Virus record (IMG/VR): IMGVR_UViG_3300045007_000398
Span: 1-26,951 of that record
Source of the DNA: a virus
Strand: one strand, 5' to 3'
Length of the DNA stretch: 26,951 bases
Below are positions 1-14,431 of this stretch, one piece after another; position 1 is the stretch's first letter, and each line of letters starts with the position of its first letter. The position numbers and the translations under genes are program-made. The notes beneath the pieces are model-generated. The model had not been told where the DNA came from, did no database searches, and saw only the letters and a list, made by a program, of their open reading frames with translations.

Positions 1-282
1 TATAAAAATATCTGCCTATTTGGTGCTCTTCTTCACGAATATTGGGAAACAAAAAAGACACTCAGTAACAAAGTTAGTAATGATTCAATAGATAATTATT
101 ATGACATAGCAAGGAAATGGGGGGCAATAGGGGGTAAAATCCTTGGGGCTGGAGGGGGAGGATTCTTATTGATATTTGCTGAACCTGAAAAACAAGAACA
201 AATAAAGTTGGCACTAAAAGATCTGATTTATGTACCATTCCATTTTGAGAAAAGCGGAACATCTATAATCTTTAAGGGGTAA
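1..282 (+). CDS. GHMP-family sugar kinase, C-terminal end (heptose-7-phosphate kinase-like), 5' truncated
   Basis: The reading frame is open from base 1 to a TAA at 280-282 and gives 93 residues of the end of a GHMP kinase. The diagnostic part is GAIGGKILGAGGGGF (residues 41-55 of the fragment), the glycine-rich C-terminal motif of this family, preceded by a FGALLHEYW segment as in D-glycero-D-manno-heptose-7-phosphate 1-kinases (HddA type). Family knowledge: HddA phosphorylates heptose-7-phosphate at C1 on the way to GDP-heptose. The specific substrate is my inference from this motif and from the transketolase genes downstream. The N-terminus and active-site loop lie outside the window. The next gene begins 20 bases on, so it looks like the same operon. 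It could be a kinase for another sugar, such as L-fucose. Confidence 0.75.
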   Translation, partial: YKNICLFGALLHEYWETKKTLSNKVSNDSIDNYYDIARKWGAIGGKILGAGGGGFLLIFAEPEKQEQIKLALKDLIYVPFHFEKSGTSIIFKG

Positions 283-302
283 TCGGAAAAAATAGAAAAC
301 CT

Positions 303-1922
303 ATGCACACATTATTTATAAACGAACGGTGGGTCCGCAACGACCCTACTCTCAGAGAAGCAAGGGGTACGGTAGAATCTTACCTTGAATCTGGCTTTGG
401 AACAGCTTCTGAATTCCATCCTGACGAATATTTTCTAAACAATAAAAAGGACTGGAATTTTGCCATAATCGAAAAAATAATAGAAGAAAAGCCCGATGTT
501 GTTTTCTATATGTGGATATTTAGTCAATACAACCCCACCTTAGAAGTATTTTCCATTATTCACAAAATGAAAATCCCGATAGTATGTTGGTGGGGAGATT
601 TTTTATTTGAAGAGTCAAGGAAAGTAGCAAGAATCCTATCCCCATTTATAAGTACTCACCTCTTAGTTGACATCCCATTCCCCATCACCGTTGATGCCCA
701 CAGGGAGAAATATAAGCATATTTGGCCCACTCCAATAAATCAATTTTTTCATAGGGGGGAAGAGAATAATAGAACAATCGCCATTTCTTTTCCTGGTGGT
801 TCTATAGAAGGAGGAAACAAGGGGCCACGAGAACAATATATAAATTTCCTTAAAGCCAATGGAATAGACGTTTTTGTAGGAGGAACTAGAAAACAAGAAA
901 CAACTATGCAATATGCTGATAATATGCGAAAATCCAAATTGGTGATAAACTTTTCTCCGAGAATGGAACTAGGTTGCCCCCTAAAGGGTCGCACATTTGA
1001 GGCCATTTGGTGTGGGGCAGCATTAATGGAGCCTGCTGGTTCCTTTTTAGAATATCACTTTAGACCATTTGTTGATTACATACCCTATGAAAATGAACAT
1101 GATTTACTAGATAAGGTAAAATATTATACAGAACACGAAAAAGAAAGGCAAGAAATAGCCAATAGGGGCTATGAAAAGGCGATCCAAAGATACAATCCAT
1201 TCTCTTTCTGGAACAAGATTTTCAATGATTATTTGATCTCCTATGATTTAAGGCTGGATGATGAGAAAATTCGTTTACTGCTCAACGAATTTATTTCCAA
1301 TAAAAAAGAACCTTTTTGTAATGACAAGGTATTTATAGAAGAAATAGCTTATATAATCCAAACCTATGGATTACGAGAATTTTGGGAAACGGGTTCCTAT
1401 TTAGGAAATTCCTCTAATTTTATCAAAAGGCTTTTCCCACACATGGTAGTATCCTCTTGTGATATACACGAGGGCTATTTGGAAAAGGCCAGGCAAGATT
1501 GTGCCACTGTTTCCTATGAATTGGCAAATTCTGTAGAATATTTACGCAATAAATTGTTTTCTTGCTCTTCTATTCCCTTTGTATTTCTTGATTCCCATGG
1601 CCATGAAGGTGGATTACCACTGGAAGAAGAATTGACCTTAATCGGTAATTCTGGTAAGGAACTTGTCCTGTGTATTCATGACTGTAAAATACCAAGTAGA
1701 AAAGTTTTTGGATGGGACACCTACGAAGGGGTAGATATTTCTACTGAACTCGTGGAAAAGATTTTATATAAAACGGAATGCGACTTTGATATTTTTGTGC
1801 CTACTAATCTTTATTGCCACAGTCCCTTGCGTGGAAGATGTTATGTGCTAATCAACCCTGAAAAGATATTCTCTAGCAAGATGATTACAAAGCTATTTAC
1901 CCCCATAGAGGAATTACCATGA
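303..1922 (+). CDS. CgeB-like glycosyltransferase fused to a C-terminal methyltransferase-like domain
   Basis: This protein of 539 residues appears to have two domains. Residues 1 to about 310 resemble the CgeB/YkvP group of glycosyltransferases (GT-B fold); the clearest piece is KGRTFEAIWCGAALMEP near residues 227-243, followed by a FRPF...YIPYEN segment and a helical end, typical of the nucleotide-sugar binding half. Residues about 345-530 look like a Rossmann-type methyltransferase: a glycine-rich loop WETGSYLGNS near 360 and an acidic FLDSHGHE near 428. The second assignment is weaker, because the loop is not canonical and binding of S-adenosylmethionine is not proved. The role is probably sugar transfer plus modification of the sugar. 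Its stop overlaps the next start as ATGA, implying coupled translation. No strong Shine-Dalgarno sequence precedes the ATG. Confidence 0.7.
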   Translation: MHTLFINERWVRNDPTLREARGTVESYLESGFGTASEFHPDEYFLNNKKDWNFAIIEKIIEEKPDVVFYMWIFSQYNPTLEVFSIIHKMKIPIVCWWGDFLFEESRKVARILSPFISTHLLVDIPFPITVDAHREKYKHIWPTPINQFFHRGEENNRTIAISFPGGSIEGGNKGPREQYINFLKANGIDVFVGGTRKQETTMQYADNMRKSKLVINFSPRMELGCPLKGRTFEAIWCGAALMEPAGSFLEYHFRPFVDYIPYENEHDLLDKVKYYTEHEKERQEIANRGYEKAIQRYNPFSFWNKIFNDYLISYDLRLDDEKIRLLLNEFISNKKEPFCNDKVFIEEIAYIIQTYGLREFWETGSYLGNSSNFIKRLFPHMVVSSCDIHEGYLEKARQDCATVSYELANSVEYLRNKLFSCSSIPFVFLDSHGHEGGLPLEEELTLIGNSGKELVLCIHDCKIPSRKVFGWDTYEGVDISTELVEKILYKTECDFDIFVPTNLYCHSPLRGRCYVLINPEKIFSSKMITKLFTPIEELP

Positions 1923-2911
1923 AAGTAGGAATATTTATACCTACATGCAACCGCCCCAAGTTCTTGCAAAGGGCTTTGACCTATTATGGTAGAAAATCTG
2001 AACTATTACGAGAAACAATATTCCATATTTATGATGCTTCTAGTCCAGAAATTATCAATATAAATAAAAGAGAAGTCGAATCACATGAATTGAACATTAA
2101 CCATGTGGAATACAAAGACCAACCTAACGAATATCAAAGATTTTTAGATTCTTCTAGGAACATAGAAGAAGAATATATTCTCCAGGTTGGGGATGATGAT
2201 TTTATAATCCCAGAAAGTTTGAAAGCAACCCAGATATTTCTGGACTCCAATGAAAATTATGTTGCTTGTAGTGGCATGAGAATGTCTTTTATCTTAGATA
2301 GTCCGGATGAAAATAAAGTAAAAGGCAAAAATATTGTTCCAACAAGAACAATCCCTGGCCCATACTGGCCTATGGACAATCCTATAGGTCGTTTCAAAAC
2401 TTATATGAGAACTGGCATTCCCATGCAACACTTCCTTACCCGCAGAGAAACCTATAGAGATATTTATGCCCACTTAGAAACAATGATGGATGGGGTTCCT
2501 CTACTAACCCAGGATTTATTGCCATGTGCTCTGTTGTCCATTAGTGGTAACATTAAGAGAATAGATTATATATTGTCTTTTCTACGCCAAGAAAGTGATC
2601 TTTCGACCTACAAATATATTGATGAAATCATGACATATCCTAACTTCTCTGAGACTTTGGTAAAAGCCAAAGAACTTTTAGTAACAAAAATGAGTAATCT
2701 CGTGGGAAAAGAGGAAGCCCAATTTACTGTGGATAGGGAATTTATTGTCCGTTTCATTTGTTTGCTCCAGTGGGTCAAAGATGTAAAATACGGCAGAGGA
2801 AATGATGAAAATGTGTTCCTCCAAGAACAAGATAAATTGAAATTTATTCCAGGGACAGAAGCTTATTACAAGCAAATCCTGAGGGACATTTACGAAGTAA
2901 GCAAGAAATAA
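1919..2911 (+). CDS. GT-A fold (GT2-like) glycosyltransferase
   Basis: The 330-residue protein starts with the family-2-like strand IFIPTCNRP (residues 5-13) and carries GDDDF at about 91-95, the acidic DxD-type site that binds metal and nucleotide sugar. The start is supported by GAGGA six bases upstream and by a four-base ATGA overlap with the previous gene. It is a clear paralogue of the N-terminal half of the protein at 4856-6502: both share IPTxNRPxFLxR, GDDDFxIP, an NxxxRxxxYMR segment and an LxPCxL segment. It most likely transfers a sugar to a glycan or protein; donor and acceptor cannot be told from the sequence. No membrane segment is visible, so it should be cytoplasmic. Confidence 0.8.
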   Translation: MKVGIFIPTCNRPKFLQRALTYYGRKSELLRETIFHIYDASSPEIININKREVESHELNINHVEYKDQPNEYQRFLDSSRNIEEEYILQVGDDDFIIPESLKATQIFLDSNENYVACSGMRMSFILDSPDENKVKGKNIVPTRTIPGPYWPMDNPIGRFKTYMRTGIPMQHFLTRRETYRDIYAHLETMMDGVPLLTQDLLPCALLSISGNIKRIDYILSFLRQESDLSTYKYIDEIMTYPNFSETLVKAKELLVTKMSNLVGKEEAQFTVDREFIVRFICLLQWVKDVKYGRGNDENVFLQEQDKLKFIPGTEAYYKQILRDIYEVSKK

Positions 2912-2912
2912 A

Positions 2913-3641
2913 TTGATAAAACTATTGCAACAAAAAGCGAATGAAGTTAGAAAACAGGTTTTGGAGAACTGTTATCGCTATAAGAACAACCACTTGTCCT
3001 CTTGTCTAAGTATCGTAGACATTATGACAGTGCTGTTTTTTGGAGAGTTCGTCCACGAGGAAAAATCCAAATTTATAATGAGCAAGGGCCACGCAAATCT
3101 TGTGCATAGTACAATTTTAGAAATGATGGGGACACCAAATGTCAGGCATACTGACCATCCTGAATACGGAAATCCGGGAATAGTGTGCACCTCTGGTTCC
3201 CTAGGCCAAGGGCTTGGTGTTGCTTGTGGAATGGCTTTGGCAAATAAGTTGAATAATGTTGGAAAAAGAGTGTATACCATAGTCGGAGACGGCGAATGCT
3301 ATGAAGGGCTAACTCAAGAAGCTCTGAATTTTATTACAAATATCCCAATAACTGTTTTGATAGACTACAATGGTTATAGTTGTGAGAAGGAAAGTCTTCA
3401 CTTGTCCTATGTCAAAACTCACATAAATGGACATAATATAGAAGAAATATACAACGCAATTAAAGAAACGTCAGAACCCCATCCTCGGGGCCATATAATT
3501 TGTTGTCATACGACAAAAGGTTATGGAATACCTAGTATTTATCATACAGAATTATTACACTATATCACACTAAATAAGGATAATATAGAAAGCATCACAA
3601 GAGAAATGGATTTTAATTTACAAATTCCTAAATCAGAATGA
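2913..3641 (+). CDS. Transketolase N-terminal half (thiamine diphosphate-binding subunit of a split enzyme)
   Basis: The 242-residue protein contains the thiamine-diphosphate (PP) domain of transketolase. The cofactor/Mg motif begins with GDGE at residues 125-128 and ends with N153 in DYNG. It is preceded by SKGHAN (57-62) and by GSLGQGLGVACGMA, a typical transketolase stretch. The usual length of a fused transketolase is about 650 residues, so this is only the first domain; the pyrimidine-binding domain is in the next gene, overlapping by ATGA. The start is a TTG one base after the previous stop, with no good Shine-Dalgarno sequence; an in-frame stop at 2898-2900 limits any extension. The SGHPGG segment of normal transketolases is changed here to NNHLSS. 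Split pairs like this occur in sugar biosynthesis clusters. Confidence 0.88.
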   Translation: MIKLLQQKANEVRKQVLENCYRYKNNHLSSCLSIVDIMTVLFFGEFVHEEKSKFIMSKGHANLVHSTILEMMGTPNVRHTDHPEYGNPGIVCTSGSLGQGLGVACGMALANKLNNVGKRVYTIVGDGECYEGLTQEALNFITNIPITVLIDYNGYSCEKESLHLSYVKTHINGHNIEEIYNAIKETSEPHPRGHIICCHTTKGYGIPSIYHTELLHYITLNKDNIESITREMDFNLQIPKSE

Positions 3642-4528
3642 CTACACAGCGCGACACCTTTTTTCAAACTATAGGCGATGCCTACAAACAAGGCAGGAAA
3701 GATTTAGTAGTATTAACTGCTGATATGGGGGCAGCAGCATTAAATGAATACAAAGGTTCCGATTTTTTAATTAATCCTGGTCCCTGCGAGCAGTTGGTAA
3801 TAACAATGGCAGCAGGATTGGCATTACAAGGAGCAAAACCATTCTGTTATGGAATAGCCCCATTTATTTCCCTGCGTGCCATAGAACAAATAAGAGTGTC
3901 TGTTTGCTCCATGGATTTACCAGTTACAATAGTGGGAGTTGGTAGTGGGCTTTCCTACGATACAGCAGGACTTACCCATCATGGGACAGAAGACCTCAGT
4001 ACCATGCGGACAATACCCAACATGAATATAGTCAATATTAGTACTATTGAAATGGCTAAATGGTATGCCAAATTTTCAATGGAATATAAACATCCCTTAT
4101 ATGTTAGACTAGATAAAAAAGCATACAACCAAACATTTATTCCTCTGTATGGTTGGTTCACTCATAATTACGGTGTAGTAAATAGGGTTAATAAAAATGT
4201 GGCAATTATTACTACGGGGGTTTTTACCCAATACCTGTTAGAACAAAAATCCGTTTTGCCTAAAAATTCCTTTATTCTGGAAGTCTATAGATTTCCTTGT
4301 GAACAAAAGAAATTGTCTACTTTTTTGGAGTCCTGTGCTAAAATAATCACAGTAGAAGAAGGGTATACTACAGGAGGATTAGGTGATTATATAGCCTCAC
4401 TTGGTTTCAAAGTAACAAAAATTGGTTTAAGCACATTTTGTGAAACTCAGCTCAGGCAACACTATTGGGATAAATTATTAACAGAAATCAAAAATGAATT
4501 GCAGGGAGAGAAACGTGAAGGAAGGTAG
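3638..4528 (+). CDS. Transketolase C-terminal half (pyrimidine-binding and C-terminal domains)
   Basis: This 296-residue partner of the preceding gene holds the pyrimidine-binding domain: CEQ at residues 50-52 contains the conserved glutamate that activates thiamine diphosphate, and HHGTEDLSTMR (114 onward) is the transketolase/DXP-synthase type signature. From about residue 180 a C-terminal Rossmann-like domain follows, with EVYRFPCEQ and the EEGYTTGGLG motif. The ATG overlaps the previous stop, so equimolar synthesis with the other half is likely. The pair would move two-carbon units between sugar phosphates, for example making sedoheptulose-7-phosphate, which fits the heptose-kinase-like gene at the left edge; that link is inference. 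A synthase using thiamine diphosphate for another sugar is possible. Confidence 0.88.
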   Translation: MTTQRDTFFQTIGDAYKQGRKDLVVLTADMGAAALNEYKGSDFLINPGPCEQLVITMAAGLALQGAKPFCYGIAPFISLRAIEQIRVSVCSMDLPVTIVGVGSGLSYDTAGLTHHGTEDLSTMRTIPNMNIVNISTIEMAKWYAKFSMEYKHPLYVRLDKKAYNQTFIPLYGWFTHNYGVVNRVNKNVAIITTGVFTQYLLEQKSVLPKNSFILEVYRFPCEQKKLSTFLESCAKIITVEEGYTTGGLGDYIASLGFKVTKIGLSTFCETQLRQHYWDKLLTEIKNELQGEKREGR

Positions 4529-4808
4529 TGAAGCTATCCAAAGGGCTTTCCAAAAAGCTGAAAAAGAATGGCAAGATAAACACGATGAAATGTGGGCTAA
4601 AATGCCAGAAGAGCAAAGACTTGCTGCTACAGATGTAATATTTAGAAAACTTATTGAACACGCAGAAGAGGGAGGAACCTACAGAAAACTAATATATGAT
4701 AGGCTAGGATTCAGGGTTGGTGGTGCCTACGCAGTTCTGTACTGTGCTGGAGGCATGACAATAAGCAACTTTTTTGAGTTACCCAAAAAGGAGATTTCCC
4801 ATGAATAA
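4515..4808 (+). CDS. Small hypothetical protein inside the sugar operon
   Basis: I do not recognise this 97-residue protein. I chose the GTG at 4515 over the in-frame ATG at 4494 because GGGAG at 4503-4507 lies seven bases before it. The N-terminal 60 residues are charged and helical; the C-terminal part, with YDRLGFRVGGAYAVLYCAGG, is more hydrophobic. The first bases overlap the end of the transketolase gene, so it belongs to the same operon. No catalytic motif or membrane anchor is evident. It could be an accessory factor or an ordinary phage small protein placed here by chance. Confidence 0.7.
   Translation: MKEGSEAIQRAFQKAEKEWQDKHDEMWAKMPEEQRLAATDVIFRKLIEHAEEGGTYRKLIYDRLGFRVGGAYAVLYCAGGMTISNFFELPKKEISHE
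4788..4793 (+). promoter_or_regulatory. Strong Shine-Dalgarno sequence AAGGAG
   Basis: AAGGAG lies seven bases before an ATG at 4801, inside the end of the preceding gene. It is among the best ribosome-binding sites on the + strand of the window, yet the ATG it serves opens a reading frame of only 16 codons; the glycosyltransferase that follows is in another frame. It may therefore load ribosomes for a short leader peptide and downstream re-initiation. Confidence 0.6.
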
Positions 4809-4851
4809 TTGGGTGAAACAATTTATTTTTATTGTGGCTATTGCATACTAA
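4801..4851 (+). CDS. Possible 16-residue hydrophobic leader peptide
   Basis: An ATG with a strong Shine-Dalgarno sequence opens 16 codons reading MNNWVKQFIFIVAIAY, then TAA. The stop is four bases before the ATG at 4856 that begins the next glycosyltransferase, which itself lacks a good ribosome-binding site. The spacing suits re-initiation by ribosomes ending the leader. Alternatively it is the relic of a frameshifted start, or noise; there is no family evidence at this length. Confidence 0.35.
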   Translation: MNNWVKQFIFIVAIAY

Positions 4852-4855
4852 AACA

Positions 4856-6502
4856 ATGTTAGAAAAACTTACTTTATATATCCCAACTATAAATCGCCCC
4901 CAATTCCTAAACCGCTCCTTGAAATATTATAATTCTATGGAGTTTGATGGGAGTATTCTTATTGGGGATAGTAGTAACTCAGATAAAAAATCGGAAAATC
5001 TCCAAGCCATAAGCAAATATCCAAATTTACAAATAGACTATCATCACTTCAAGTTGGGGGATGAATACCACCACCACGATGCTGTTAAAACCTATCTTCT
5101 TCTAGGCCAAATTAAAACTCCTTACACAACCTTTGCTGGGGATGATGACTTTCAAATTCCTGATGGGCTTAAATTATGTGTAGAATTTTTAGAGAACAAT
5201 CCAGATTATGTAGCAGCACATGGAGAAAGGCTAAATTTTACCCTTGATGACGAAATGTACGGTAATATAATAGGATTAGATATTCATGGTGGTTATAATT
5301 GGGAAACAGACAACGCCGTAAATAGATGGCAAGATTATATGAGAAAAGGAGTGGCCACCACCTATTACATACACAGAACTTCTGCTTGGAAAAAATATTA
5401 CCAATTCTCTAAGGATGCCAAATCTAACTACTTAGGTAACGAACTGATCCCCTGTTCTCTGTGTGCCTTATTGGGAAAAGTGAAAAAATTGGATTGTTTG
5501 ACAACAGCTTTTCAGAGAGACAATCCCATTAGAAAATTCAGTTTCGCCAAAACTACCTTATGGGATCTAATTAATGGAAAAAATTGGTCAGATTCCGCAA
5601 CCATATTCAGAAAAGCTGTAATTGAACAAATCATGGAGACAACTACCGAAGAGAAAGCGAGTGACATATTTTATCAGGAGTTTTGGTACCATTGTTTGAA
5701 CATTATGCACTATCAATTTAATACTAAATATTCTACACCCCAAGAAAAACAATATCAACAATTAGATATGACCAAACTGCCCGTGGATGATCCCTTCTTC
5801 CCCGTTTATAAGGTCTTACTTGGGGAAAGTGGGGAAATATTAAATGGGTATTTGGAGAAAATTCATGGGTTAGATATCAGGGAAGGCAGCACCAACGAGG
5901 ATTACAAAAAACTTATTGAGCTGGTCTTGTCCATAGCAAAGTCTGGAATGAAAGTAGTAGAAGTTGGCAGTTGGAAGGGAGGTACAACAGGAGTTTTGGG
6001 GGAAGTTATCAAAGAACAGGGTGGGGAATTAACAGTTATTGACCCCTGGGAGAACGAAACAGTCCCAATAAATCACGATGATATTTATGAAATTTTTAAA
6101 AATAACATGAAAACATTAGGACTGGAAGAAACAATCAGAATAATTAAAAAATCATCACGGGAAGGTCACAAAGAAATTGAAAATGAAAGTATGGATTTGG
6201 TGTTTTTAGATGGCCTGCATATGTATGGTTATATCAGTCATGATATTAAAGATTATTATCCCAAATTGCGGAAGGGCGGAATTTTATGCGGACATGATTG
6301 CAATTTGAGGTTTGAAGGACAGCCGCCAGAAGTACAAAAAGAAGTTGAAGAAAATATTCATACAAATTGTGTAAGTATTAAATCCCTAAATGGAAAGAAG
6401 GTTCATTGTGGAGTTACAAAAGCAATTTTTGATTATTTTGGGAACAAATATCAGACTTCCAGTAATCCAATGTGTTCTGTTTGGTGGGTAATCAAAGAAT
6501 GA
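4856..6502 (+). CDS. GT-A glycosyltransferase fused to a class I SAM-dependent methyltransferase
   Basis: I start this protein at the ATG at 4856 (548 residues), because it then aligns with the paralogue at 1919, both opening with the YIPTxNRP-type strand; a TTG at 4832 would add eight residues. Residues 1-300 are the glycosyltransferase, with GDDDF at 95-99. Residues about 345-500 form a Methyltransf_24-like domain: VEVGSWKGGTT at about 368-378 is the S-adenosylmethionine-binding loop, FLDGLHMYGY near 450-459 the acidic strand, and GGILCGHDC a late motif. The likely role is to transfer a sugar and methylate it, or to cap the chain. The stop overlaps the next start by ATGA. Confidence 0.82.
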   Translation: MLEKLTLYIPTINRPQFLNRSLKYYNSMEFDGSILIGDSSNSDKKSENLQAISKYPNLQIDYHHFKLGDEYHHHDAVKTYLLLGQIKTPYTTFAGDDDFQIPDGLKLCVEFLENNPDYVAAHGERLNFTLDDEMYGNIIGLDIHGGYNWETDNAVNRWQDYMRKGVATTYYIHRTSAWKKYYQFSKDAKSNYLGNELIPCSLCALLGKVKKLDCLTTAFQRDNPIRKFSFAKTTLWDLINGKNWSDSATIFRKAVIEQIMETTTEEKASDIFYQEFWYHCLNIMHYQFNTKYSTPQEKQYQQLDMTKLPVDDPFFPVYKVLLGESGEILNGYLEKIHGLDIREGSTNEDYKKLIELVLSIAKSGMKVVEVGSWKGGTTGVLGEVIKEQGGELTVIDPWENETVPINHDDIYEIFKNNMKTLGLEETIRIIKKSSREGHKEIENESMDLVFLDGLHMYGYISHDIKDYYPKLRKGGILCGHDCNLRFEGQPPEVQKEVEENIHTNCVSIKSLNGKKVHCGVTKAIFDYFGNKYQTSSNPMCSVWWVIKE

Positions 6503-7872
6503 ACTTCCTACTTGTCAAACCAGGCAACCAACCTATTCTTTATGGGGAAACCCATAAATTCAATTCCCCGGCCATTGAGCCACCATTTTGGCCCCTATTA
6601 CATGGTTCCTATTTACAGCAGCTGGGGCAAGAAGTCAAAATAATAGATTTAGAAATAGAACCCCGCGAAAAGCTAACAGTGGAACTGATAAATCAACCAG
6701 ACTACATTGTAATCTATATGTCTGGTCATAACCCCACTGCTAGTATAATGAATATGGTGGGAATAGATGAATTGATCAAACAGATCAGGAGTTTTCACGA
6801 AAGGGCTGTTATTCTTTTACATGGTCTTTACCCCAGTTCTGATTCCCTTCGCATATTAGAAAAACATAGAGGGATAGATTATGTCATAAAACAAGAGGGA
6901 TTTATATCTCTGGACTATTCAAATACACGCAGACCCCAGGGATTGACTATAGACCACCTCCCCTTGATTAATTGGGATCTTATTGATTTATCCAGATACC
7001 GTGCCCATAACTGGCATTTATTTGGCAATATACACAACAGGAGTCCCTATGGTATAGTATATTCCTCCTTCGGTTGTCCCTTTTCCTGTGATTTTTGTTG
7101 CATCAATGTTATGCACGATAGGGTTCAATTGAGAGATATGAATTTAGTACTTCAAGATATCAAAAATTTGTATGATAGGGGAGTCCGCAACATTAAATTT
7201 CATGACGAACTCTTTGTTATGGACAAGAAGAGAGTTATGGATTTATGTGTTAAAATAATAGAACACAACATGGGGGATATTAATGCTTGGGCCTATGCCC
7301 GTACAGATTCTTTAGATTCTGAATTAATAAAAATTATGTTGGAAGCTGGGATTAGATGGTTAGGTATTGGATATGAATCAGGTTCGCAGGCAATTTTAAA
7401 TTCTTCCGATAAGAAGCAAAATTTACAAAAAGCATACAAAGTTACTGAATTGTGTAAAAAGCATGGAATGAATATAAATGGAAATTTTATGTTTGGCCTT
7501 ATAGATGATACTATAGAAACTATGGAAACTACTCTTAAATTATCCCTGGGACTTCTCCCAGAATGGGCCAATTTTAATGTGGTTCATGCTTTTCCTGGCA
7601 CCAAACTGTATGAAAAAGTTAAGAAAGAACCCTGGTTTAATGAACCTAAATTATATGAAGAATATACCCAACATGGTTTCCACTGCACCCCAATGGGTTC
7701 TAAATATTTAACCCCAAAAGAAGTTCTGCAATTTAAAGATGAAGCTTTTCGTCGCTTCTATAAAAATCCTGTTTATCTAAACATGGTTGAAACTAAATTT
7801 GGAACAGAAACTAAGGAATATATCCAAAACACTTTGATTTATTACCCTAAACGAAAAATAGTTGAGGTATAG
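6499..7872 (+). CDS. Radical SAM enzyme with N-terminal cobalamin-binding-like domain
   Basis: The protein has 457 residues from the ATG at 6499, which overlaps the previous stop as ATGA; a start at 6472 would lie inside the upstream gene. Residues 193-200, CPFSCDFC, are the CxxxCxxC iron-sulphur cluster site of radical SAM enzymes, followed by IKFHDELF and a GYESGSQ segment as expected for the barrel. Residues 1 to about 150 have the layout of the B12-binding domain common in such enzymes, but I do not see the DxHxxG cobalamin-ligand motif, so B12 may bind base-off without a histidine or not at all. In this operon it may methylate or rearrange a sugar or lipid; the substrate is unknown. Confidence 0.82.
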   Translation: MNFLLVKPGNQPILYGETHKFNSPAIEPPFWPLLHGSYLQQLGQEVKIIDLEIEPREKLTVELINQPDYIVIYMSGHNPTASIMNMVGIDELIKQIRSFHERAVILLHGLYPSSDSLRILEKHRGIDYVIKQEGFISLDYSNTRRPQGLTIDHLPLINWDLIDLSRYRAHNWHLFGNIHNRSPYGIVYSSFGCPFSCDFCCINVMHDRVQLRDMNLVLQDIKNLYDRGVRNIKFHDELFVMDKKRVMDLCVKIIEHNMGDINAWAYARTDSLDSELIKIMLEAGIRWLGIGYESGSQAILNSSDKKQNLQKAYKVTELCKKHGMNINGNFMFGLIDDTIETMETTLKLSLGLLPEWANFNVVHAFPGTKLYEKVKKEPWFNEPKLYEEYTQHGFHCTPMGSKYLTPKEVLQFKDEAFRRFYKNPVYLNMVETKFGTETKEYIQNTLIYYPKRKIVEV

Positions 7873-7951
7873 CTCAAAGAACACAAAATTTGGACCCCTC
7901 AGACGTCCCAGGTCAAACGATTTTTAAAAACACAGGGAAAACCCTTAATTT

Positions 7952-8650
7952 ATGAAAATAGTGTTAATTGGATTTGGTGAAGTTGGTAAAGCAATATATC
8001 AATTAATTGCTCCACACTACAAAGACATCAAGATAATAGATCAAAAATACTTTGATAGAAAAGAAATCCCTAAAACAGATATTTTATTGGTGACTATTCC
8101 TTATACAGAAACCTTTATTCATACTATCAAAGAATACCAAAGACAGGCGCAGCCCAAAAGTACCATCATATTTTCTACTGTCCCTATTGGTATTTGTCGT
8201 TCTTTAGACGCCTCACATTCCCCCATTGAGGGGAAGCACCCTTTTCTCTATGAAAGTATTAAAAAATCTCCAAGATGGATTGGCGGCTATAACGAACAAG
8301 TATTGGAATTTTTCAAGCCAATAAATTTGGTACTTAGACTAGCAGACAAACCTGAAACTACAGAATTTTTAAAATTACGTTCGACAACTCTATATGGCCT
8401 TAATATAGAATTCGCTAGGTATTCAGGAGAAGTCTGCAAAAATCTGGGGATTGAATATGAATTGGTGAAATGTTTTGATAAAGACTACAACGAACTTTAT
8501 TTATCCATAGGGTTGGGACAATATGGGAGATATATTTTAGATCCACCGCAAGGAAAAATAGGGGGACATTGTATACTACCCAACGCTGATTTATTATATA
8601 GACAATTTCCAGACAACCTAATTAAAGAAATCTTGAAAAAGAATATATAA
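7952..8650 (+). CDS. Compact UDP-glucose/GDP-mannose dehydrogenase-like NAD-binding protein
   Basis: The 232-residue protein opens with the nucleotide-binding strand and loop IGFGEVGKAI (GxGxxG at residues 7-12). The middle reads like the UDP-glucose dehydrogenase family: PRWIGG, then FLKLRSTTLYGLNIEFARYS, which matches the conserved long helix, and finally KIGGHCILPNADLL, where C207 matches the catalytic cysteine of the GGHCxP motif. Family members are about 400-450 residues; here the C-terminal UDP-binding domain is absent and the Rossmann part is short. It may act on a smaller or carrier-bound sugar, or be inactive. It is separated from the radical SAM gene by 79 bases, the largest gap in the operon, so separate regulation is possible. 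Confidence 0.6.
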   Translation: MKIVLIGFGEVGKAIYQLIAPHYKDIKIIDQKYFDRKEIPKTDILLVTIPYTETFIHTIKEYQRQAQPKSTIIFSTVPIGICRSLDASHSPIEGKHPFLYESIKKSPRWIGGYNEQVLEFFKPINLVLRLADKPETTEFLKLRSTTLYGLNIEFARYSGEVCKNLGIEYELVKCFDKDYNELYLSIGLGQYGRYILDPPQGKIGGHCILPNADLLYRQFPDNLIKEILKKNI

Positions 8651-8651
8651 T

Positions 8652-9101
8652 ATGCAGAAGCACCCCAATATCGAACCCCCTGAAATAGAAGAAAAGCAAA
8701 AAACACAAGGAAAAAGAAAACGCAGAGAAACTTTGTGCAAGGATAAGTGCAAAGAATACTTCCATTGTGGAATATGTGGTTCTGAAGACTTGGTTTATAC
8801 CCAATTAGTATACTGTGAACAATGTGGAAAAGAAAATTATGATATAGACATAAAAAGGAAAATTCTTACTATCATCGCAGAATCTCCCTGTTCTTGTAAA
8901 GGAAAACCATATGTATATCGGAACAAAACTTTTTGCCGTAATCCTAGGGGAGACATAACTATTCGCATATGTTCTGCATGTGGGAGTGTAGAAAGTAATA
9001 CCTGTCCCGTATGTAAGTCTTATTCAAAGTGCTGGACTTCTCCTTTTGGAGAAAAATATTGCAGACTTTGTGGGTATAGGCATAAAGGATACAGAAAATA
9101 G
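8652..9101 (+). CDS. Cysteine-rich multi-zinc-ribbon protein
   Basis: The 149-residue protein has a lysine-rich basic N-terminus (residues 1-30) and then many cysteine pairs: CGIC, CEQC, CSC, CSAC, CPVC and CRLC, in pairs suited to zinc ribbons. I recognise no family. The basic leader and ribbons suggest nucleic-acid binding, possibly a transcription or recombination helper, but that is inference. It begins one base after the stop of the upstream gene and its TAG stop overlaps the apparent ATA start of the DNA methyltransferase, so the two are probably translated together. Confidence 0.7.
   Translation: MQKHPNIEPPEIEEKQKTQGKRKRRETLCKDKCKEYFHCGICGSEDLVYTQLVYCEQCGKENYDIDIKRKILTIIAESPCSCKGKPYVYRNKTFCRNPRGDITIRICSACGSVESNTCPVCKSYSKCWTSPFGEKYCRLCGYRHKGYRK
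9085..9089 (+). promoter_or_regulatory. Shine-Dalgarno AAGGA that points to a non-canonical ATA start
   Basis: AAGGA lies eight bases before the ATA at 9098, inside the 3' end of the zinc-ribbon gene. By contrast, the first in-frame ATG of the methyltransferase (9152) has no comparable site. This spacing is the main reason to place the methyltransferase start at 9098. Confidence 0.5.
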
Positions 9102-9685
9102 AACTTATTAAAAGTATTTCTTATAATCAAGACGAAATTATAAAAAATATAATGGCCCTACATACAGGGCCTATTCAAATTGATTTTACTTTTGGTTCTG
9201 GCAATTTTTGGAAAAGACTGCCAGCTCCCAAATTTTGTTTTGATATAGCACCTAAAACAAAAAAGGCAATTCCTGCTGATGTGCGAAACATTCCCTTAAA
9301 AGATAATAGTGTAGTTTCCTGTGTTTTTGATCCCCCTTTTATGATGCGAACAGGGCCAGGATCTGTATTGAAAAAAAGATTTCAAGAAATAAAAGGAACT
9401 ATTCAGGATTTATGGGATTTCTATTTTTTAGCTATGAAAGAAATTCACAGAGTTTTAGCTCCAAAAGGTTGGTTGGTTTTTAAGTGTCAGGATGGTGTTT
9501 TATCAGGAGTAAACAACTTTACTCACTGTCAGATATATAATATAGCAACAATTCTAGGTTTTGTTCCTAAAGACCTATTCATATTGCTCGCAAAAAATAG
9601 AATGTGGTGCCCAACTCACAAAATTCAAAGGCATGCTCGTAAGTTTCATTCATATTTCTGGGTATTTCAAAAGGCTAATCAGTGA
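9098..9685 (+). CDS. DPPF-type DNA methyltransferase, probably starting at ATA
   Basis: This is a phage DNA methyltransferase-like protein: FDPPFMM is the catalytic motif IV of amino-group (N6-adenine or N4-cytosine) methyltransferases, IDFTFGSGNF is the S-adenosylmethionine-binding loop, and FKCQDG and ARKFHSYFWVF are typical later segments. Starting at the first ATG (9152) gives 177 residues and cuts off the stretch reading ELIKSISYNQDEIIKNI (9101-9151), which is in frame, stop-free back to 9083 and looks like the normal N-terminus of this group. No ATG, GTG or TTG exists there. ATA at 9098 has a well-placed Shine-Dalgarno and overlaps the upstream TAG as ATAG, copying the ATGA overlaps elsewhere in the operon; that gives 195 residues. 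The role may be self-protection against restriction. Confidence 0.75.
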   Translation: MELIKSISYNQDEIIKNIMALHTGPIQIDFTFGSGNFWKRLPAPKFCFDIAPKTKKAIPADVRNIPLKDNSVVSCVFDPPFMMRTGPGSVLKKRFQEIKGTIQDLWDFYFLAMKEIHRVLAPKGWLVFKCQDGVLSGVNNFTHCQIYNIATILGFVPKDLFILLAKNRMWCPTHKIQRHARKFHSYFWVFQKANQ

Positions 9686-9879
9686 ACAACCAAATAATTG
9701 AACAGTGCAATGGATGCGATAATATCGTAGAAAATGTTTGTCGTATTTGGGTATGCCCTACAGCAAAATGGAGGCTAGGTCCCTGTTTTAATGCTACACA
9801 TATCAATAAAGATAGAAGAATAATTAGGGAAAAAGTTAGAGTAGGGCAACAGAAGTCTAAAAAGAAGACAAGAAAATAA
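9682..9879 (+). CDS. Small conserved Cys-rich phage protein
   Basis: The 65-residue protein starts with GTG overlapping the methyltransferase stop (GTGA). It has CNGC near the N-terminus, then a second pair of cysteines, and the stretch PTAKWRLGPCFNATHI, a pattern I associate with small phage proteins of unknown function that may bind metal. The C-terminus is strongly basic (KKKTRK). It sits directly before the ribonucleotide reductase. No function can be assigned. Confidence 0.65.
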   Translation: MNNQIIEQCNGCDNIVENVCRIWVCPTAKWRLGPCFNATHINKDRRIIREKVRVGQQKSKKKTRK

Positions 9880-9912
9880 TCCCAAGCACACGAGAACAAA
9901 GGAGTTTAGGCT

Positions 9913-12291
9913 TTGGTAAAATTATCCAGTAATGCGATGGAAGTTTTAAACAAAAGATACTTACAAAAAGATAAAAATGGCAACGTTGTTGAAACATCTG
10001 AGCAAATGTTCAGACGTGTAGCTAAACATATAGCAAAGGCAGAAAGAACACCAGAATTGCAGAGGGAATGGGAAGAAAAGTTCTACAATGTAATAACTAA
10101 TTTGGAGTTTCTCCCAAACAGCCCAACCCTCAGGAATGCTGGTGCAAATAGTGGAGTGTTAGCAGCTTGTTTTGTTCTTCCTATAGAAGATTCTAGGTCA
10201 AGTATTTTTAAAACCCTGACTGAAGCTGTGGAAGTGCAGTCTTGGGGAGGAGGAACAGGGTATTCCTTTTCTAACTTACGACCCAAGGGGGATTTAATCC
10301 GCACAACTGGTGGTTCAGCAAGTGGACCTTGTTCTTTTATGGAAGTATATGATTTTACTATAGGTGAGATAATAGAACAAGGTGGTACTAGGAAAGGTGC
10401 TCAACTTGCAACTCTCCTATGCAATCATCCTGACATATTCAGATTCATAGACTGTAAAAAACAAGAGGGCAAACTTACGCATTTTAATATTTCTGTTTCT
10501 ATTACAGATAACTTCATGGAAAAATTAAACAAAGATGAAGGTATTGGTGATTGGTCGCTAGAATTTGAAGGAAGAGGATATTCTTTATGTAGTACAAAGG
10601 AACTATGGGACAAAATAATTTATAATGCTTGGGAAAATGGAGAACCGGGGATATTATTCATTGATACCATTAACAAGAAAAATCCTTGTAACAAATATCA
10701 GACAATCGAAAGTAGTAATCCATGTGGTGAAAGTCCACTTGCTTCTTACGAGTCCTGCGTACTAGGTTCTATTAATCTTGCTAATTTTGTAATTAGAAGA
10801 TATTTTCCCCCTAATTTGCAGAAGCCACTGGATGGGGGCCTTGATTTCGATTGGGACAAACTCAAAAGTGTAATCAAAGTTGCTGTTCGTTTTTTAGATA
10901 ATATAATAGATGTTAATAACTACCCCATCCCAGAAATAGAAAGAGAAACGAAGAAATTTAGGAAAATTGGTATTGGTGTCATGGGGTGGGCTGATGCTCT
11001 GATCAAACTGAACACGTCTTACAGCAGCCAACAGGCTTTGGCCCTTGCAGAAAAAATTATGAAATTTATTAATACTGAAGCTATTTCATATTCTAAAGAA
11101 TTGGCGATTGAAAAGGGATTTGGCACATGGAAAACCCAAACAGAATTAAGTACAACAGAAGAAACTACCACAGAACTAGCCACTAGGAGAAATGGGGTAG
11201 TTACCGTAATCGCCCCCACAGGCACATTGTCCCTGATTGCTGGTTGCTCCGCCGGAATTGAACCAATATTTGCCTTAGAATTCAATAAAAAATGTATAGA
11301 TAAAGAAATAGTAGTCAAACACCCTTTGTGGGAAGAATACACCAAATCCCACTTCCCCAACATAGTTCCGGACTGTCTTGGGATCAAACCAGAATATTTC
11401 ATAGAATCCAAAGATGTTCCCATTGAGCAGCATATTAGGATGCAAGCGGCGTTTCAAAGGCATACGGAGGGGGCTGTATCTAAAACTATTAATGCCCCTA
11501 ATTCAGCCACTATTGAAAATGTGGATTACGCATTCAAATTAGCATTTGAACTCGGATGCAAGGGCATAACCTTCTATCGCCAAGGAAGCAGGGAAGACGA
11601 AGCCCAAACACCCATTGTAGACAAAGGACACGTAGTGAAGTCAGGCCCAACACACCAGGCTGTCAACCTGGAGACCGCGGGTTCAAATCCCGTCGTGTCC
11701 GCCAATTCAGAAGAAACACTTTTTCCTCCTGAATGGATGTGGGGGGGAAGACAAATGGTAAAAACTGGAGAAGGCACACAGTGGATTCATTTATTTGAAG
11801 ACCCTGTAACTGGCTACAGGGAAATGTGGTCCCAAATTAGTAAAGAAGGGAGAACAATTTCTTCCATGAATGCTGCTACGGGGCGATTAGCTACTTTGGC
11901 ATTAAATAGGGGGGCGACTTGGGAAGAAGTCGAAAAGCAATTGCGAGGAATCATAGGAGAAAAAACGGCTTGGTTTGGTGGTGAGCAAATACTTAGCCCT
12001 CCCGACGCAATGGCTAAAACTATTAGGAAGCGTATATTAAAAAATCCAGAATGGAATAAAATGTTGTTAGTATTGTCAGGTCAGCACAATCCAACAAAAG
12101 ATATGGGTTCTGCTCCTACCCCCAAATTCCAATCGGATAAAGAAATTAAACAATTACATGATTTTGGCTTTAAAATAGCAAATGAATTATTGGGGGAACC
12201 TCTGTGCCCAGACTGCGCTTTTCCTTTGACCTACGATGAAGGATGCAAGGGCGGGAGATGCGGAGCTTGTGGGTGGTCTAACTGTAGTTAA
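9913..12291 (+). CDS. nrdJ: Class II (adenosylcobalamin-dependent) ribonucleotide reductase
   Basis: The 792-residue enzyme reduces ribonucleotides to deoxyribonucleotides for phage DNA synthesis. TTG at 9913 is the start, with AAAGGAG eight bases before it. The first redox cysteine is C86 (AACFVLP), the active-site motif NPCGE is at 269-273 with catalytic C271 and E273, and the partner cysteine C282 lies in SCVLGSINL. The barrel ends near residue 555 (GCKGITFYRQGSRE). A linker follows, then a TSCPD-like domain from about 617 (ISKEG...RLATLAL...QLRGI) and a cysteine-rich tail with C765, C768, C778, C783, C786 and C791 that probably relays reducing power. Absence of a second subunit and no radical-generating gene fit class II. 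Residues 572-597 are encoded by a complete tRNA-Asp gene, which is extraordinary. Confidence 0.93.
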   Translation: MVKLSSNAMEVLNKRYLQKDKNGNVVETSEQMFRRVAKHIAKAERTPELQREWEEKFYNVITNLEFLPNSPTLRNAGANSGVLAACFVLPIEDSRSSIFKTLTEAVEVQSWGGGTGYSFSNLRPKGDLIRTTGGSASGPCSFMEVYDFTIGEIIEQGGTRKGAQLATLLCNHPDIFRFIDCKKQEGKLTHFNISVSITDNFMEKLNKDEGIGDWSLEFEGRGYSLCSTKELWDKIIYNAWENGEPGILFIDTINKKNPCNKYQTIESSNPCGESPLASYESCVLGSINLANFVIRRYFPPNLQKPLDGGLDFDWDKLKSVIKVAVRFLDNIIDVNNYPIPEIERETKKFRKIGIGVMGWADALIKLNTSYSSQQALALAEKIMKFINTEAISYSKELAIEKGFGTWKTQTELSTTEETTTELATRRNGVVTVIAPTGTLSLIAGCSAGIEPIFALEFNKKCIDKEIVVKHPLWEEYTKSHFPNIVPDCLGIKPEYFIESKDVPIEQHIRMQAAFQRHTEGAVSKTINAPNSATIENVDYAFKLAFELGCKGITFYRQGSREDEAQTPIVDKGHVVKSGPTHQAVNLETAGSNPVVSANSEETLFPPEWMWGGRQMVKTGEGTQWIHLFEDPVTGYREMWSQISKEGRTISSMNAATGRLATLALNRGATWEEVEKQLRGIIGEKTAWFGGEQILSPPDAMAKTIRKRILKNPEWNKMLLVLSGQHNPTKDMGSAPTPKFQSDKEIKQLHDFGFKIANELLGEPLCPDCAFPLTYDEGCKGGRCGACGWSNCS
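11626..11704 (+). tRNA. tRNA-Asp (anticodon GTC) nested in frame in the ribonucleotide reductase gene
   Basis: The sequence folds as a full tRNA. The acceptor stem is GGACACG/CGTGTCC (11626-11632 with 11694-11700, seven perfect pairs), followed by discriminator G and encoded CCA (11702-11704). Bases 8-9 are TA. The D arm pairs GTG/CAC, with A14, G18G19 and A21 present and one mismatch at 13-22. The anticodon stem is CCAGG/CCTGG (11655-11659 with 11667-11671), loop CTGTCAA, anticodon GTC at 11662-11664. The variable loop has five bases. The T stem is GCGGG/CCCGT with one G-T pair and loop TTCAAAT. It lies on the same strand as the reductase and is read as 26 stop-free codons plus one base. Whether it is processed is unknown. 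Confidence 0.93.
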
Positions 12292-12292
12292 T

Positions 12293-12538
12293 TTAGACTA
12301 ATTCTACCACTACATGTAAACATTCACCATGATCATCACCATCATCAAATTCTCCTAAACATATAACACACTTCCACATTACACAACCCCAGCGTTTCGG
12401 TAGTACAGGAACTTGTTCTGGGTAATAATTACACATATCATCAATATCAATAAAATAGCACATTCCACAAGTATGCCAAGGGTATTTACGGTATCCTTTA
12501 CCATTGTCTATAAACATATGGGGGACGAAACTGATCAT
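12293..12538 (-). CDS. Small Cys-rich hypothetical protein
   Basis: The 81-residue protein carries CGMCYF, then MCNYYPEQVP, then GCVMWKCVIC. The spacing of CxxC with a following YF, C-x-YP and CxxxxC resembles a widespread class of tiny phage proteins that probably hold one metal or iron-sulphur site. It has an acidic, histidine-containing end (DDGDDHGE). It is the last gene of the - strand operon and ends one base from the stop of the ribonucleotide reductase on the other strand. Confidence 0.6.
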   Translation of the reverse strand: MISFVPHMFIDNGKGYRKYPWHTCGMCYFIDIDDMCNYYPEQVPVLPKRWGCVMWKCVICLGEFDDGDDHGECLHVVVELV

Positions 12539-12542
12539 TTCA

Positions 12543-12851
12543 TTAGTGGAATAAACTCTTTTTCACACATTCTGTAGAATCCAGGGAGTACTCCGGATTC
12601 CAAATTACTTCCCAGCCCTTACGGGAGGCAGCAGAAGCAAGAGAAACTAAGGCTTCATTACTTATAGTCAAAGGAGTTCCGTCAGGTCCATTTATTCTGA
12701 ACCAACCCTTAGTTTTCCAGCCATCATCTGAATTCTCCATCCAAGATGTCCGCTGGAAAACAAGATGGTCGCTTGTATAAGCAAATTCTTTTTTAAACAA
12801 TACACCATTTCTCATTGCTTCTATTTCAAGGTGTAGAATTTCTTGTTCCAT
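12543..12851 (-). CDS. Hypothetical protein
   Basis: I recognise no family for this 102-residue protein. It has an acidic N-terminal half and a central segment WFRINGPDGTPLTISNEAL that reads like a small beta-rich domain, then an alanine-rich helix. No membrane segment or catalytic motif is visible. It sits four bases upstream of the next small gene, in the same direction, so it is probably co-transcribed with the late operon. Confidence 0.6.
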   Translation of the reverse strand: MEQEILHLEIEAMRNGVLFKKEFAYTSDHLVFQRTSWMENSDDGWKTKGWFRINGPDGTPLTISNEALVSLASAASRKGWEVIWNPEYSLDSTECVKKSLFH

Positions 12852-12862
12852 AATAAACCTTC

Positions 12863-13075
12863 CTAGTGATGAGGGGGCTTTTTATTCTCATAATCATCAC
12901 AAATTTCATTGTGGCAAGCCATACAGTTGATCTTTTTAACAACTGTTTTCATAATTACATCGGCTATTTCTAATACATTCTCTGGATGGATAGTAGAATT
13001 AAATTCTATGACCAGCTTAGGGTTTTCGTCCATCCTCCAATAAAAACGGCAAGAAACTGCTTCATTTTCTTCCAT
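12863..13075 (-). CDS. Small hypothetical protein
   Basis: I place the start at the ATG ending at 13075 (70 residues) because GAGG lies about eight bases upstream and it avoids overlap with the metallophosphoesterase; an in-frame ATG at 13153 would overlap it by 76 bases. The protein is acidic at the N-terminus, with an EVLEIADVIMKTVVKK helix and a CMACHNEIC cysteine cluster near the end that may bind metal. No function is recognised. Confidence 0.6.
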   Translation of the reverse strand: MEENEAVSCRFYWRMDENPKLVIEFNSTIHPENVLEIADVIMKTVVKKINCMACHNEICDDYENKKPPHH

Positions 13076-13077
13076 AG

Positions 13078-14088
13078 TTACGTCCTCACGGGGTAAAATC
13101 TTGTAGTAACACTTACAACCCGTTCCGGAGCCACAACCACTTCTATTGTCCAAAAACCCATAGAAGCACTTATCTTCCTACCCCGCATAAATGGTGTTTG
13201 GTGTTGGGTGCATCCTCCCTGTATTATGCAAACGCCTCTGTAGAAAAGTACTTCAGCTTTATGGTAGTGACCAACTAGCAAAAGATCTGGTTTTGTTCCT
13301 GGGGATAATTCTGAAACGTATTTTTGAACATTATATGAAATTGCATAAGCTGTCCCACCATCTGGATGACAAAGCCTGACAGTTGCTGTGGAATCACCAG
13401 AACCTATAGTGATATCAGCCTCTTGATGTCCCAAACAAACCAAGTCTTTGCGTTTGTCAGATATTTTTGCTCCAATATCATTGCCGCCATCTTTCCAGAA
13501 ACTCCTATCGTGGTTACCAACAATAAAATAGGTGGTTATGCCTTTGCGTTGTGGATAAACTTGGCAAGCCAAATCAACTTGTGCGTCTGCCCCAATAACC
13601 TCTAGTTCATATTCGTGACCCTTAAACATTTTTTGCCCATCTATAATATCCCCAGAGTGAAATACCGTTTTAATCTTTTCAGATTCAAAGACGTCATAGG
13701 CATAATTAAGTAGAGCTTTGTCCGAATACAAACTGCCTATATGGCTATCGGAAACATAGCCAAATTTATGATGAGTACCATCCAAACAAAGCATGGGGGT
13801 TTGGATGTGTCTGGTTAGTTCTTGAACTTGCCTCTGTAATTTCCTAACCTGTTCTTCAGCATCAAGAAGTTTATAAGAATCTACTTCGTTTTCTTTATAG
13901 GTTTCGTCCCCCATTTCGGCTAAGTAGTTTTTAGCCTTTTCTATAACTTCACTCCACTTCCCAAACAAGCGATACAGTGAACGCCTTGATGGTTTTTCTG
14001 TTTTTAGCGCGTCATAGACTGTGGCAGAAATAACTCCCTGTTCCCTAATTATTTTAGCAAATTTTTCTATGGTCGTTTTTTGGTCCAC
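13078..14088 (-). CDS. Calcineurin-like metallophosphoesterase with HTH-like N-terminus
   Basis: The 336-residue protein has the full metal-binding set of the calcineurin-like family: D114 and H116 (SDSHIG), D147 (GDIIDG), N192-H193-D194 (GNHD), H241 (CHPDGG) and H274/H276 (GHYHK). The N-terminal 60 residues look like a helix-turn-helix (SRRSLYRLFGKWSEV), and residues 70-95 form a short coiled coil. Such proteins are nucleases, RNA or nucleotide phosphodiesterases or phosphatases; the HTH suggests a nucleic-acid substrate, which is inference. GTG at 14088 is the start, supported by AGGAGG four bases upstream. It follows the spanin genes and precedes small proteins in the late operon. Confidence 0.85.
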   Translation of the reverse strand: MDQKTTIEKFAKIIREQGVISATVYDALKTEKPSRRSLYRLFGKWSEVIEKAKNYLAEMGDETYKENEVDSYKLLDAEEQVRKLQRQVQELTRHIQTPMLCLDGTHHKFGYVSDSHIGSLYSDKALLNYAYDVFESEKIKTVFHSGDIIDGQKMFKGHEYELEVIGADAQVDLACQVYPQRKGITTYFIVGNHDRSFWKDGGNDIGAKISDKRKDLVCLGHQEADITIGSGDSTATVRLCHPDGGTAYAISYNVQKYVSELSPGTKPDLLLVGHYHKAEVLFYRGVCIIQGGCTQHQTPFMRGRKISASMGFWTIEVVVAPERVVSVTTRFYPVRT

Positions 14089-14098
14089 AACTCCTCCT

Positions 14099-14431
14099 TT
14101 ACTTCCAGAACTTCCACCAAGATTCCTTTTCTATTTTGAGTTCTGGGATTGGTTCAGTAATTTGCTTATTAAGAATGTCTATGGCTAATTCTCTTTCGTC
14201 AAAACCCGCTTCTATCTCGATCATGTATTCTTCCAGTTCCCCTACAAAAGAAAGAGGTATTTGATCAAATACTTCTCTATTCGGGGGTTTTAGCTTTGGC
14301 CTTGGGGATAAGTCTTTTAATGTTACCGCCGGAACTCTCAGGATTGGTTTTTGGGTTACGGTAGTTGTACAGCCGTACAAAATTATTGTAAAGAAAATCC
14401 CTGTCATTGCTAGTGACAGCTTGTTTAACAT
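14099..14431 (-). CDS. Rz1-like outer-membrane spanin lipoprotein
   Basis: The 110-residue protein begins with a short hydrophobic signal ending in ILYGC, a lipobox with C21 as the lipid-modified residue, followed by proline-containing segments. Its gene overlaps the end of the Rz-like gene by about 155 bases in a different frame, the classic Rz/Rz1 arrangement. Together the pair would bridge inner and outer membranes and disrupt the outer membrane at lysis, so the host is Gram-negative. I prefer ATG at 14431 over GTG at 14434, because AGGGG is seven bases before the ATG. It is longer than lambda Rz1 (60 residues). Confidence 0.78.
   Translation of the reverse strand: MLNKLSLAMTGIFFTIILYGCTTTVTQKPILRVPAVTLKDLSPRPKLKPPNREVFDQIPLSFVGELEEYMIEIEAGFDERELAIDILNKQITEPIPELKIEKESWWKFWK

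Follow-up and report, generated by a model that had tools for sequence, protein, structure and literature searches.

What kind of sugar is made by a phage operon that carries a split transketolase (TK) beside a radical S-adenosylmethionine (radical-SAM) enzyme and glycosyltransferases, and what does the TK contribute to it? This question is raised by the left 8.65 kb (positions 1 to 8650) of IMG/VR record IMGVR_UViG_3300045007_000398, a linear record of 26,951 bases that was analyzed whole and is called the window below. A preliminary description of this DNA saw a phage-borne operon for sugar synthesis and transfer, in which the TK supplies sedoheptulose-7-phosphate, by way of GmhA, to an HddA-type kinase for the synthesis of an activated heptose. 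The operon is real, phage-borne and serves sugar synthesis and transfer, as two other phages carry this gene set surrounded by phage genes (L063 and L102; contigs and loci are given by our own handles). Its parts are ordinary, and their combination is unusual and recurrent. For the TK we arrive at a different role: we give an even chance to a reading in which the phage has a copy of a cassette conserved in bacteria, whose enzymes build an unusual activated sugar and transfer it, with the TK branching a ketone by a two-carbon unit.

Radical-SAM genes of one family are accompanied by a single type of ThDP enzyme

Relatives were found with family-specific alignments of the kinase, the radical-SAM protein and the N-terminal TK half (TktN); single-protein scans with the C-terminal TK half (TktC), GT1 and the radical-SAM protein gave no viral contigs. 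A two-sequence profile (window and L018) found the radical-SAM family in at least 149 viral contigs and 77 bacterial loci. The bacterial loci carry, on the same strand, epimerase-type enzymes (56 of 77), an HddA-like kinase (52), a DegT-type pyridoxal phosphate (PLP) enzyme (48) and an HddC-like enzyme (45), with GmhA in only 5 or 6. The thiamine diphosphate (ThDP) enzyme near the radical-SAM gene is of one of three types: a pyruvate dehydrogenase E1-like alpha/beta pair (E1), a split TK, or an acetolactate-synthase-like enzyme (ALS).

These types exclude each other almost completely. After loci with radical-SAM identity above 80% had been collapsed, 63 bacterial and 53 viral loci remained, and ThDP genes were counted within 8 kb of the radical-SAM gene. 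One ThDP type was found in 50 of the 63 bacterial loci (31 E1, 11 TK, 8 ALS; 13 had none) and two types in none, where permutation gave an expectation of 9.4. Among the viral loci one type was counted in 45 of 53 (29 E1, 12 ALS, 3 TK, 1 double; 8 had none), so that a single locus had two types against 9.0 expected. So few doubles were reached in 0 of 20,000 permutations for the bacterial or the viral set; the permutation ignores kinship, which makes this p-value optimistic, and the loci nevertheless come from many phyla. One cultivated bacterium with a cassette of the TK type is Uliginosibacterium gangwonense DSM 18521 (L219).

The PLP enzyme of the cassette points to the kind of sugar on which the ThDP enzyme would act. 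In nearly all members a His replaces the catalytic Lys (SFYYAHHMSTIEGG) and the best match is RfbH, which together indicate that this enzyme should be a sugar C3-dehydratase making deoxy-keto sugars. According to a 2025 review, three ThDP families form tertiary-alcohol branches on sugars, namely YerE-like decarboxylases, aKADH2 (E1 alpha/beta) and split-gene TKs, and the substrate that YerE branches is a sugar of the deoxy-keto type (PMC12247030). The ThDP types of the radical-SAM loci are the same three families as on that list.

Three observations on viral loci of this family may be added. E1-like pairs and ALS-like genes are common beside the radical-SAM family in viral contigs (L088 to L166), often without a kinase. 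The 159-kb viral contig L073 has E1-, ALS- and TK-type enzymes in neighbouring cassettes (5512-14269). In the 140-kb phage (locus L088), an alginate-lyase-like gene (11549-12529) stands between the radical-SAM gene and TktN.

The predicted fold of the radical-SAM enzyme is closest to that of a sugar dehydratase

An AlphaFold2 model of the window radical-SAM protein (37 sequences) reached a predicted local distance difference test score (pLDDT) of 90.6 and a predicted template modelling score (pTM) of 0.90, with both the radical-SAM fold and the Cx3Cx2C cluster motif present. Its closest solved fold is AprD4 (PDB 6fd2; Foldseek E 5.5e-24; Z 33.5, 2.6 Å over 396 residues), the next match having a Z of 28.1. 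AprD4 is the radical-SAM 1,2-diol dehydratase of apramycin synthesis and acts on the sugar paromamine. A dehydratase of this kind that left a deoxy-keto sugar would provide the acceptor of the ThDP enzyme, which would explain why radical-SAM and ThDP genes travel together.

The TK of the window belongs to the radical-SAM-linked group

The nearest solved structures of the window TK are the split TKs 6yak and 6yaj, and the split TK of the preliminary description is confirmed. The classical ThDP motif and catalytic residues are kept (GDG, Asn, five His, Glu); conserved residues in TktN are His27, His60, His82, Asp126, Asn153 and His216, and TktC retains the catalytic Glu51 and His114. At the phosphate anchors of TktA, which we take to be Arg358, Ser385, His461 and Arg520, the window has Arg, Ala, Gly and Lys, so that two usual phosphate-binding residues (Ser385 and His461) are lost; both are replaced in all cassette TKs as in the window. 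The position of TktA Asp469 is Ala in the window TktC.

In a maximum-likelihood tree of TktC (71 rows), the window falls inside a 33-row clade with support 100/100 that consists exclusively of TKs from radical-SAM-selected loci and their viral kin. Outside this clade lie metabolic split and full-length TKs as well as the GmhA-linked phage TKs of L020, L060, L062 and L064; TK matches from the phage collection (unannotated faecal records and a Salmonella contig) served only as non-cassette TK references. A FastTree placement of the window beside L018 and L279 had support 0.10 and was not used. The check set, chosen independently of the radical-SAM gene by a TktN scan (128 viral contigs, 80 kept), gave the same division: TktC belonged to the window's clade in 13 of 15 loci linked to the radical-SAM gene and in 3 of 37 unlinked ones. 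It is very probable that the window carries a member of the radical-SAM/ThDP cassette, and we lean toward a TK that branches a keto-sugar rather than one that supplies sedoheptulose-7-phosphate.

Closest phage gene sets and a proposed pathway

Since position 1 of the record falls inside the kinase gene, the sequence to its left cannot be read, and relatives were used to judge what lies there. The gene sets closest to that of the window are in phages L063 (140 kb) and L102 (74 kb), which share with it the kinase, GT1, a TIGR04440 glycosyltransferase, Methyltransf_24, TktN, TktC and the radical-SAM gene. In both, the cassette lies among thymidylate synthase, exonuclease and tail-fibre genes; it starts with epimerase, HddC and kinase, and an RmlC-like 3,5-epimerase gene follows the kinase. 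Of the three genes that the preliminary description expected to the left, HddC is thus in place directly left of the kinase, while neither GmhA nor a GmhB-like HAD phosphatase was found in the whole record of L063 or L102. GmhA was likewise not found in the records of L018 and L319, the latter having the same TK, glycosyltransferase, methyltransferase and radical-SAM genes with no kinase in view.

From these parts we infer the following route, in its chemical steps as in their order. Activation of the sugar would fall to the HddA-like kinase and to an HddC-like nucleotidyltransferase, whose gene would lie beyond the left end of the window, to judge by the closest relatives; epimerase-type enzymes together with the radical-SAM enzyme would make a deoxy-keto nucleotide sugar of it. 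Acting as a ThDP carboligase, the split TK would then add a two-carbon (hydroxyacetyl) unit to the ketone to give a C-branched sugar, which the glycosyltransferases would attach to a putative acceptor on the virion, the host surface or DNA and the methyltransferases would methylate. The bacterial gene set is widespread but unstudied, and it probably builds and attaches such a carbon-branched sugar, which is more than an ordinary heptose. A broader proposal is tentative, and doubt about it prevails: that in a cassette common to phages and bacteria a radical-SAM sugar dehydratase makes the ketone and one of three interchangeable ThDP carboligases branches it, so that split TKs outside Streptomyces would have nucleotide sugars as substrates and branched-chain sugars would be built by phages themselves.

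The kinase and the question of heptose

The predicted end of a heptose-kinase-like GHMP kinase was borne out. The best NCBIfam match of the fragment is HddA (57.5 bits over 82 aa, with a curated cut-off of 600; NF049969), and its best solved structures are 3k85, 4usm and 4n3o. With a profile of the kinase C-terminus, related kinases were recognized in at least 374 viral contigs (loci L011 to L087), 80 of which were kept; a large viral clade of them is encoded directly next to GmhA-like genes and a conserved glycosyltransferase. A quick kinase tree (Shimodaira-Hasegawa-like approximate likelihood ratio support only) has two clades apart from the solved HddA-like enzymes, one viral and mostly GmhA-adjacent, the other (clade II) mostly from radical-SAM/ThDP cassettes. 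Of the 20 nearest relatives of the window fragment, 19 are cassette kinases of clade II; its mean score is 175 with cassette kinases, 149.5 with GmhA-adjacent phage kinases and 49.7 with canonical HddA. By score it is thus much nearer to the cassette kinases than to 3k85, 4usk and 4n3o. Full-length relatives reach 109-163 of the 600 bits set as the HddA cut-off, and in the tree they stand in clades of their own, separate from the three solved HddA-like kinases, which makes another sugar substrate quite possible.

Is the base sugar nevertheless a heptose? We consider this close to an even chance. The alternative that survives best joins both ideas: a heptose base is made by a host or phage GmhA, the kinase and HddC, and the TK and radical-SAM enzyme modify the activated heptose into a branched derivative. 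Phage L279 joins GmhA with a kinase, a radical-SAM gene and a TK of the window's clade, bacterial genomes with the cassette have a GmhA-like match elsewhere in 29 of 30 cases, and a GmhB-like phosphatase lies about 2 kb away in 2 of 7 bacterial TK cassettes. Set against these are the four phage records (L063, L102, L319 and L018) in which GmhA was not found and the low HddA scores and separate clades of the full-length kinases, and we regard this alternative as a real possibility that falls short of an even chance. The lack of GmhA in the bacterial cassettes had also been considered as evidence against heptose and was dropped because of the GmhA-like matches elsewhere in those genomes. In L279 the genes form a compact row, GmhA-kinase-radical SAM-TktC-TktN, between structural genes (6858-10750).

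The preliminary description's own pathway, in which the TK supplies sedoheptulose-7-phosphate and GmhA, the HddA-like kinase, GmhB and HddC turn it into GDP-D-glycero-D-manno-heptose or a derivative for the phage glycosyltransferases, is sound in itself. Phages L060 and L062 have GmhA-kinase-HddC-dehydratase-TktN-TktC in one row beside packaging genes (terminase in L060), and the L060 row, judged by gene content, reads as a complete set of steps leading from hexose phosphate to activated heptose; the row of L279 and the HddA-likeness of the window kinase also fit. In L060 (4449-6592), TktN and TktC are separated by a transaldolase/fructose-6-phosphate-aldolase-like gene. Yet the TKs of L060, L062, L020 and L064 are outside the window's clade, which holds the radical-SAM-linked TKs, and neither GmhA nor a GmhB-like gene was found in the whole records of the closest phages. 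In other loci the pyruvate-using E1- and ALS-type enzymes often take the place of the TK, and we know of no enzyme of these two types that makes sedoheptulose-7-phosphate. Of the 80 kinase-selected viral loci, at least 53 carry a GmhA-like gene in the neighbourhood, which speaks for this pathway; an HddC-like gene is present in 25 and TktC in 9. Six of these loci have both GmhA and a ThDP enzyme, 47 only GmhA, 15 only a ThDP enzyme and 12 neither, an anti-association (Fisher p = 7.5e-5) where supply of sedoheptulose-7-phosphate to GmhA by the TK predicts the opposite pattern. This pathway is therefore unlikely for the window.

That the kinase, TK and radical-SAM genes belong to unrelated sugar pathways that are merely neighbours within a variable glycan region, without a common product, would suit the modular nature of glycan gene clusters, the presence of TK, E1 and ALS genes in one stretch of L073 and the loci in which the TK pair and the kinase are apart, but is improbable given the tight same-strand tie of the radical-SAM gene to a single ThDP type in many phyla and the identical seven-gene set in three phages.

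Several points weigh against keto-sugar branching by the window TK. All enzyme activities here are predicted, and the window has no C3-dehydratase, epimerase or nucleotidyltransferase gene; these are unseen because the left end is cut, and the C3-dehydratase is seen in relatives. The kinase fragment is too short for firm placement in a tree. Of the 80 TktN-selected viral loci, 15 have the radical-SAM gene and 5 the kinase, so that such TKs occur in other settings as well. The change of His461 to Gly, once considered decisive, lost weight because the GmhA-adjacent TKs of L020, L060, L062 and L064 have it too; taken alone it leaves use of sugar phosphates possible, and it serves as supporting evidence only. 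The radical-SAM sequence scores higher to the HpnJ and BchE models than to that of AprD4, with all three below cut-off (89.5 of 500 bits for AprD4, NF033070), and its partner genes differ from the AprD4/AprD3 setting. An AprD4-like fold in a predicted model does not prove dehydratase chemistry.

Organization of the operon and neighbouring genes

Genes of the operon are listed in Table 1. They are co-oriented, as the preliminary description had it, with the ATGA overlaps confined to three junctions (1919, 3638 and 6499); at the others the genes are 1 base apart, overlap by 35 bases or are separated by short gaps.

Table 1. Genes of the sugar operon in the window
Feature	Position	Strand	Evidence
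GHMP sugar kinase, C-terminal 93 aa	1..282	+	PF08544, 38.8 bits; truncated by left end of record
Glycosyltransferase (Glyco_trans_1_2) with C-terminal methyltransferase-like domain	303..1922	+	PF13524, 59.3 bits
TIGR04440-family glycosyltransferase	1919..2911	+	106.7 bits (cut-off 70)
TktN, N-terminal half of split TK	2913..3641	+	PF00456; TTG start; compact, 242 aa
TktC, C-terminal half of split TK	3638..4528	+	PF02779
Small protein, open reading frame only	4494..4808	+	35-base overlap with TktC; Pfam match below threshold
TIGR04440 glycosyltransferase fused to Methyltransf_24	4856..6502	+	TIGR04440, 175.5 bits (cut-off 70); PF13578, 68 bits
Radical-SAM protein, B12-binding-domain class	6499..7872	+	PF04055; Cx3Cx2C cluster motif at 7075-7098
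Short nucleotide-sugar-dehydrogenase-like protein	7952..8650	+	TIGR03026, 27.5 bits (cut-off 189.8)

The two or three glycosyltransferase domains reported earlier are three, one PF13524 and two TIGR04440, and the radical-SAM enzyme holds as well; the phage collection gave no useful relatives of the glycosyltransferases. For the second TIGR04440 gene the reading frame had been listed with a TTG start at 4832; an ATG start at 4856 is likelier. Of two supposed methyltransferase-like domains, the Methyltransf_24 domain is certain. The other (about 1260-1919) matched no Pfam family or PDB chain, though it has a stand-alone homologue (33%) within the same gene set in phage L319 (6774-7535). The likeness of the last protein to sugar dehydrogenases is faint: it keeps the GGHC motif, the C-terminal part of nucleotide-sugar dehydrogenases is absent, and no relatives were found in the phage collection. 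A single-sequence structure model of it was too poor to use.

Directly after the operon, 8652-9101 encodes a protein with many paired cysteines that looks like a zinc ribbon by eye; family searches at the thresholds used gave no match for it. A DNA methyltransferase and a ribonucleotide reductase are encoded in mid-window. ARAGORN placed a tRNA-Asp (gtc) at 11626-11704, in frame within the reductase reading frame (9913-12291) and between the reductase barrel domain and the TSCPD domain; this is either a gene in the linker of the reductase gene or the point where two genes adjoin. In the right half of the window, minus-strand genes make up a tail and lysis module of a phage, with DUF2460, baseplate hub, Rcc01698-like tail protein, transglycosylase tape measure and amidase genes.

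Comparison with known systems

Glycosyltransferases and nucleotide-sugar genes are familiar from phages, and a literature search on phages and branched-chain sugars found no paper, so that a self-made branched sugar, if true, would be new in the literature searched. Host-recognition regions of pelagimyophages resemble the operon: there, too, a variable region of the phage genome has radical-SAM cassettes along with genes for glycosyltransferases and nucleotide sugars; the parts of that report consulted assign no pathway to the radical-SAM genes and do not mention TK (PMC7029224).

Relative to the GDP-D-glycero-D-manno-heptose pathway, the operon shares the HddA-like kinase and, in L063 and L102, the HddC-like enzyme directly left of it; it differs in that these two phages are without GmhA and GmhB and in a kinase outside the clade of solved HddA-like kinases. 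AprD4 is the closest solved fold across nearly the whole length of the window radical-SAM protein, with an identity of only 18%. AprD4 pairs with the reductase AprD3 for C3-deoxygenation (PMC5461906), whereas no AprD3-like reductase was recognized here and the activity is predicted.

Split-gene TKs have been put forward as candidates for keto-sugar branching in 13 cases, including the miharamycin and amipurimycin pathways, all from Streptomyces and none shown in vitro, and whether they transfer a two-carbon unit to a keto-sugar is an open question (PMC12247030). Unlike those TKs of secondary metabolism, the window type has a radical-SAM partner and occurs in phages and, across many phyla, in glycan loci. 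The cassette thus supplies many natural sequences for this question, and the pattern of one type per locus makes it directly testable.

The yersiniose-type pathway, in which a C3-dehydratase works with YerE (PMC12247030), is also comparable. The window differs from it in its split TK, extra radical-SAM enzyme, HddA-like kinase and phage setting, and the dehydratase is not in the window. In relatives of the cassette, a His-type C3-dehydratase is paired with a ThDP enzyme, and the logic would be the same: a two-carbon unit placed onto a deoxy-keto nucleotide sugar.

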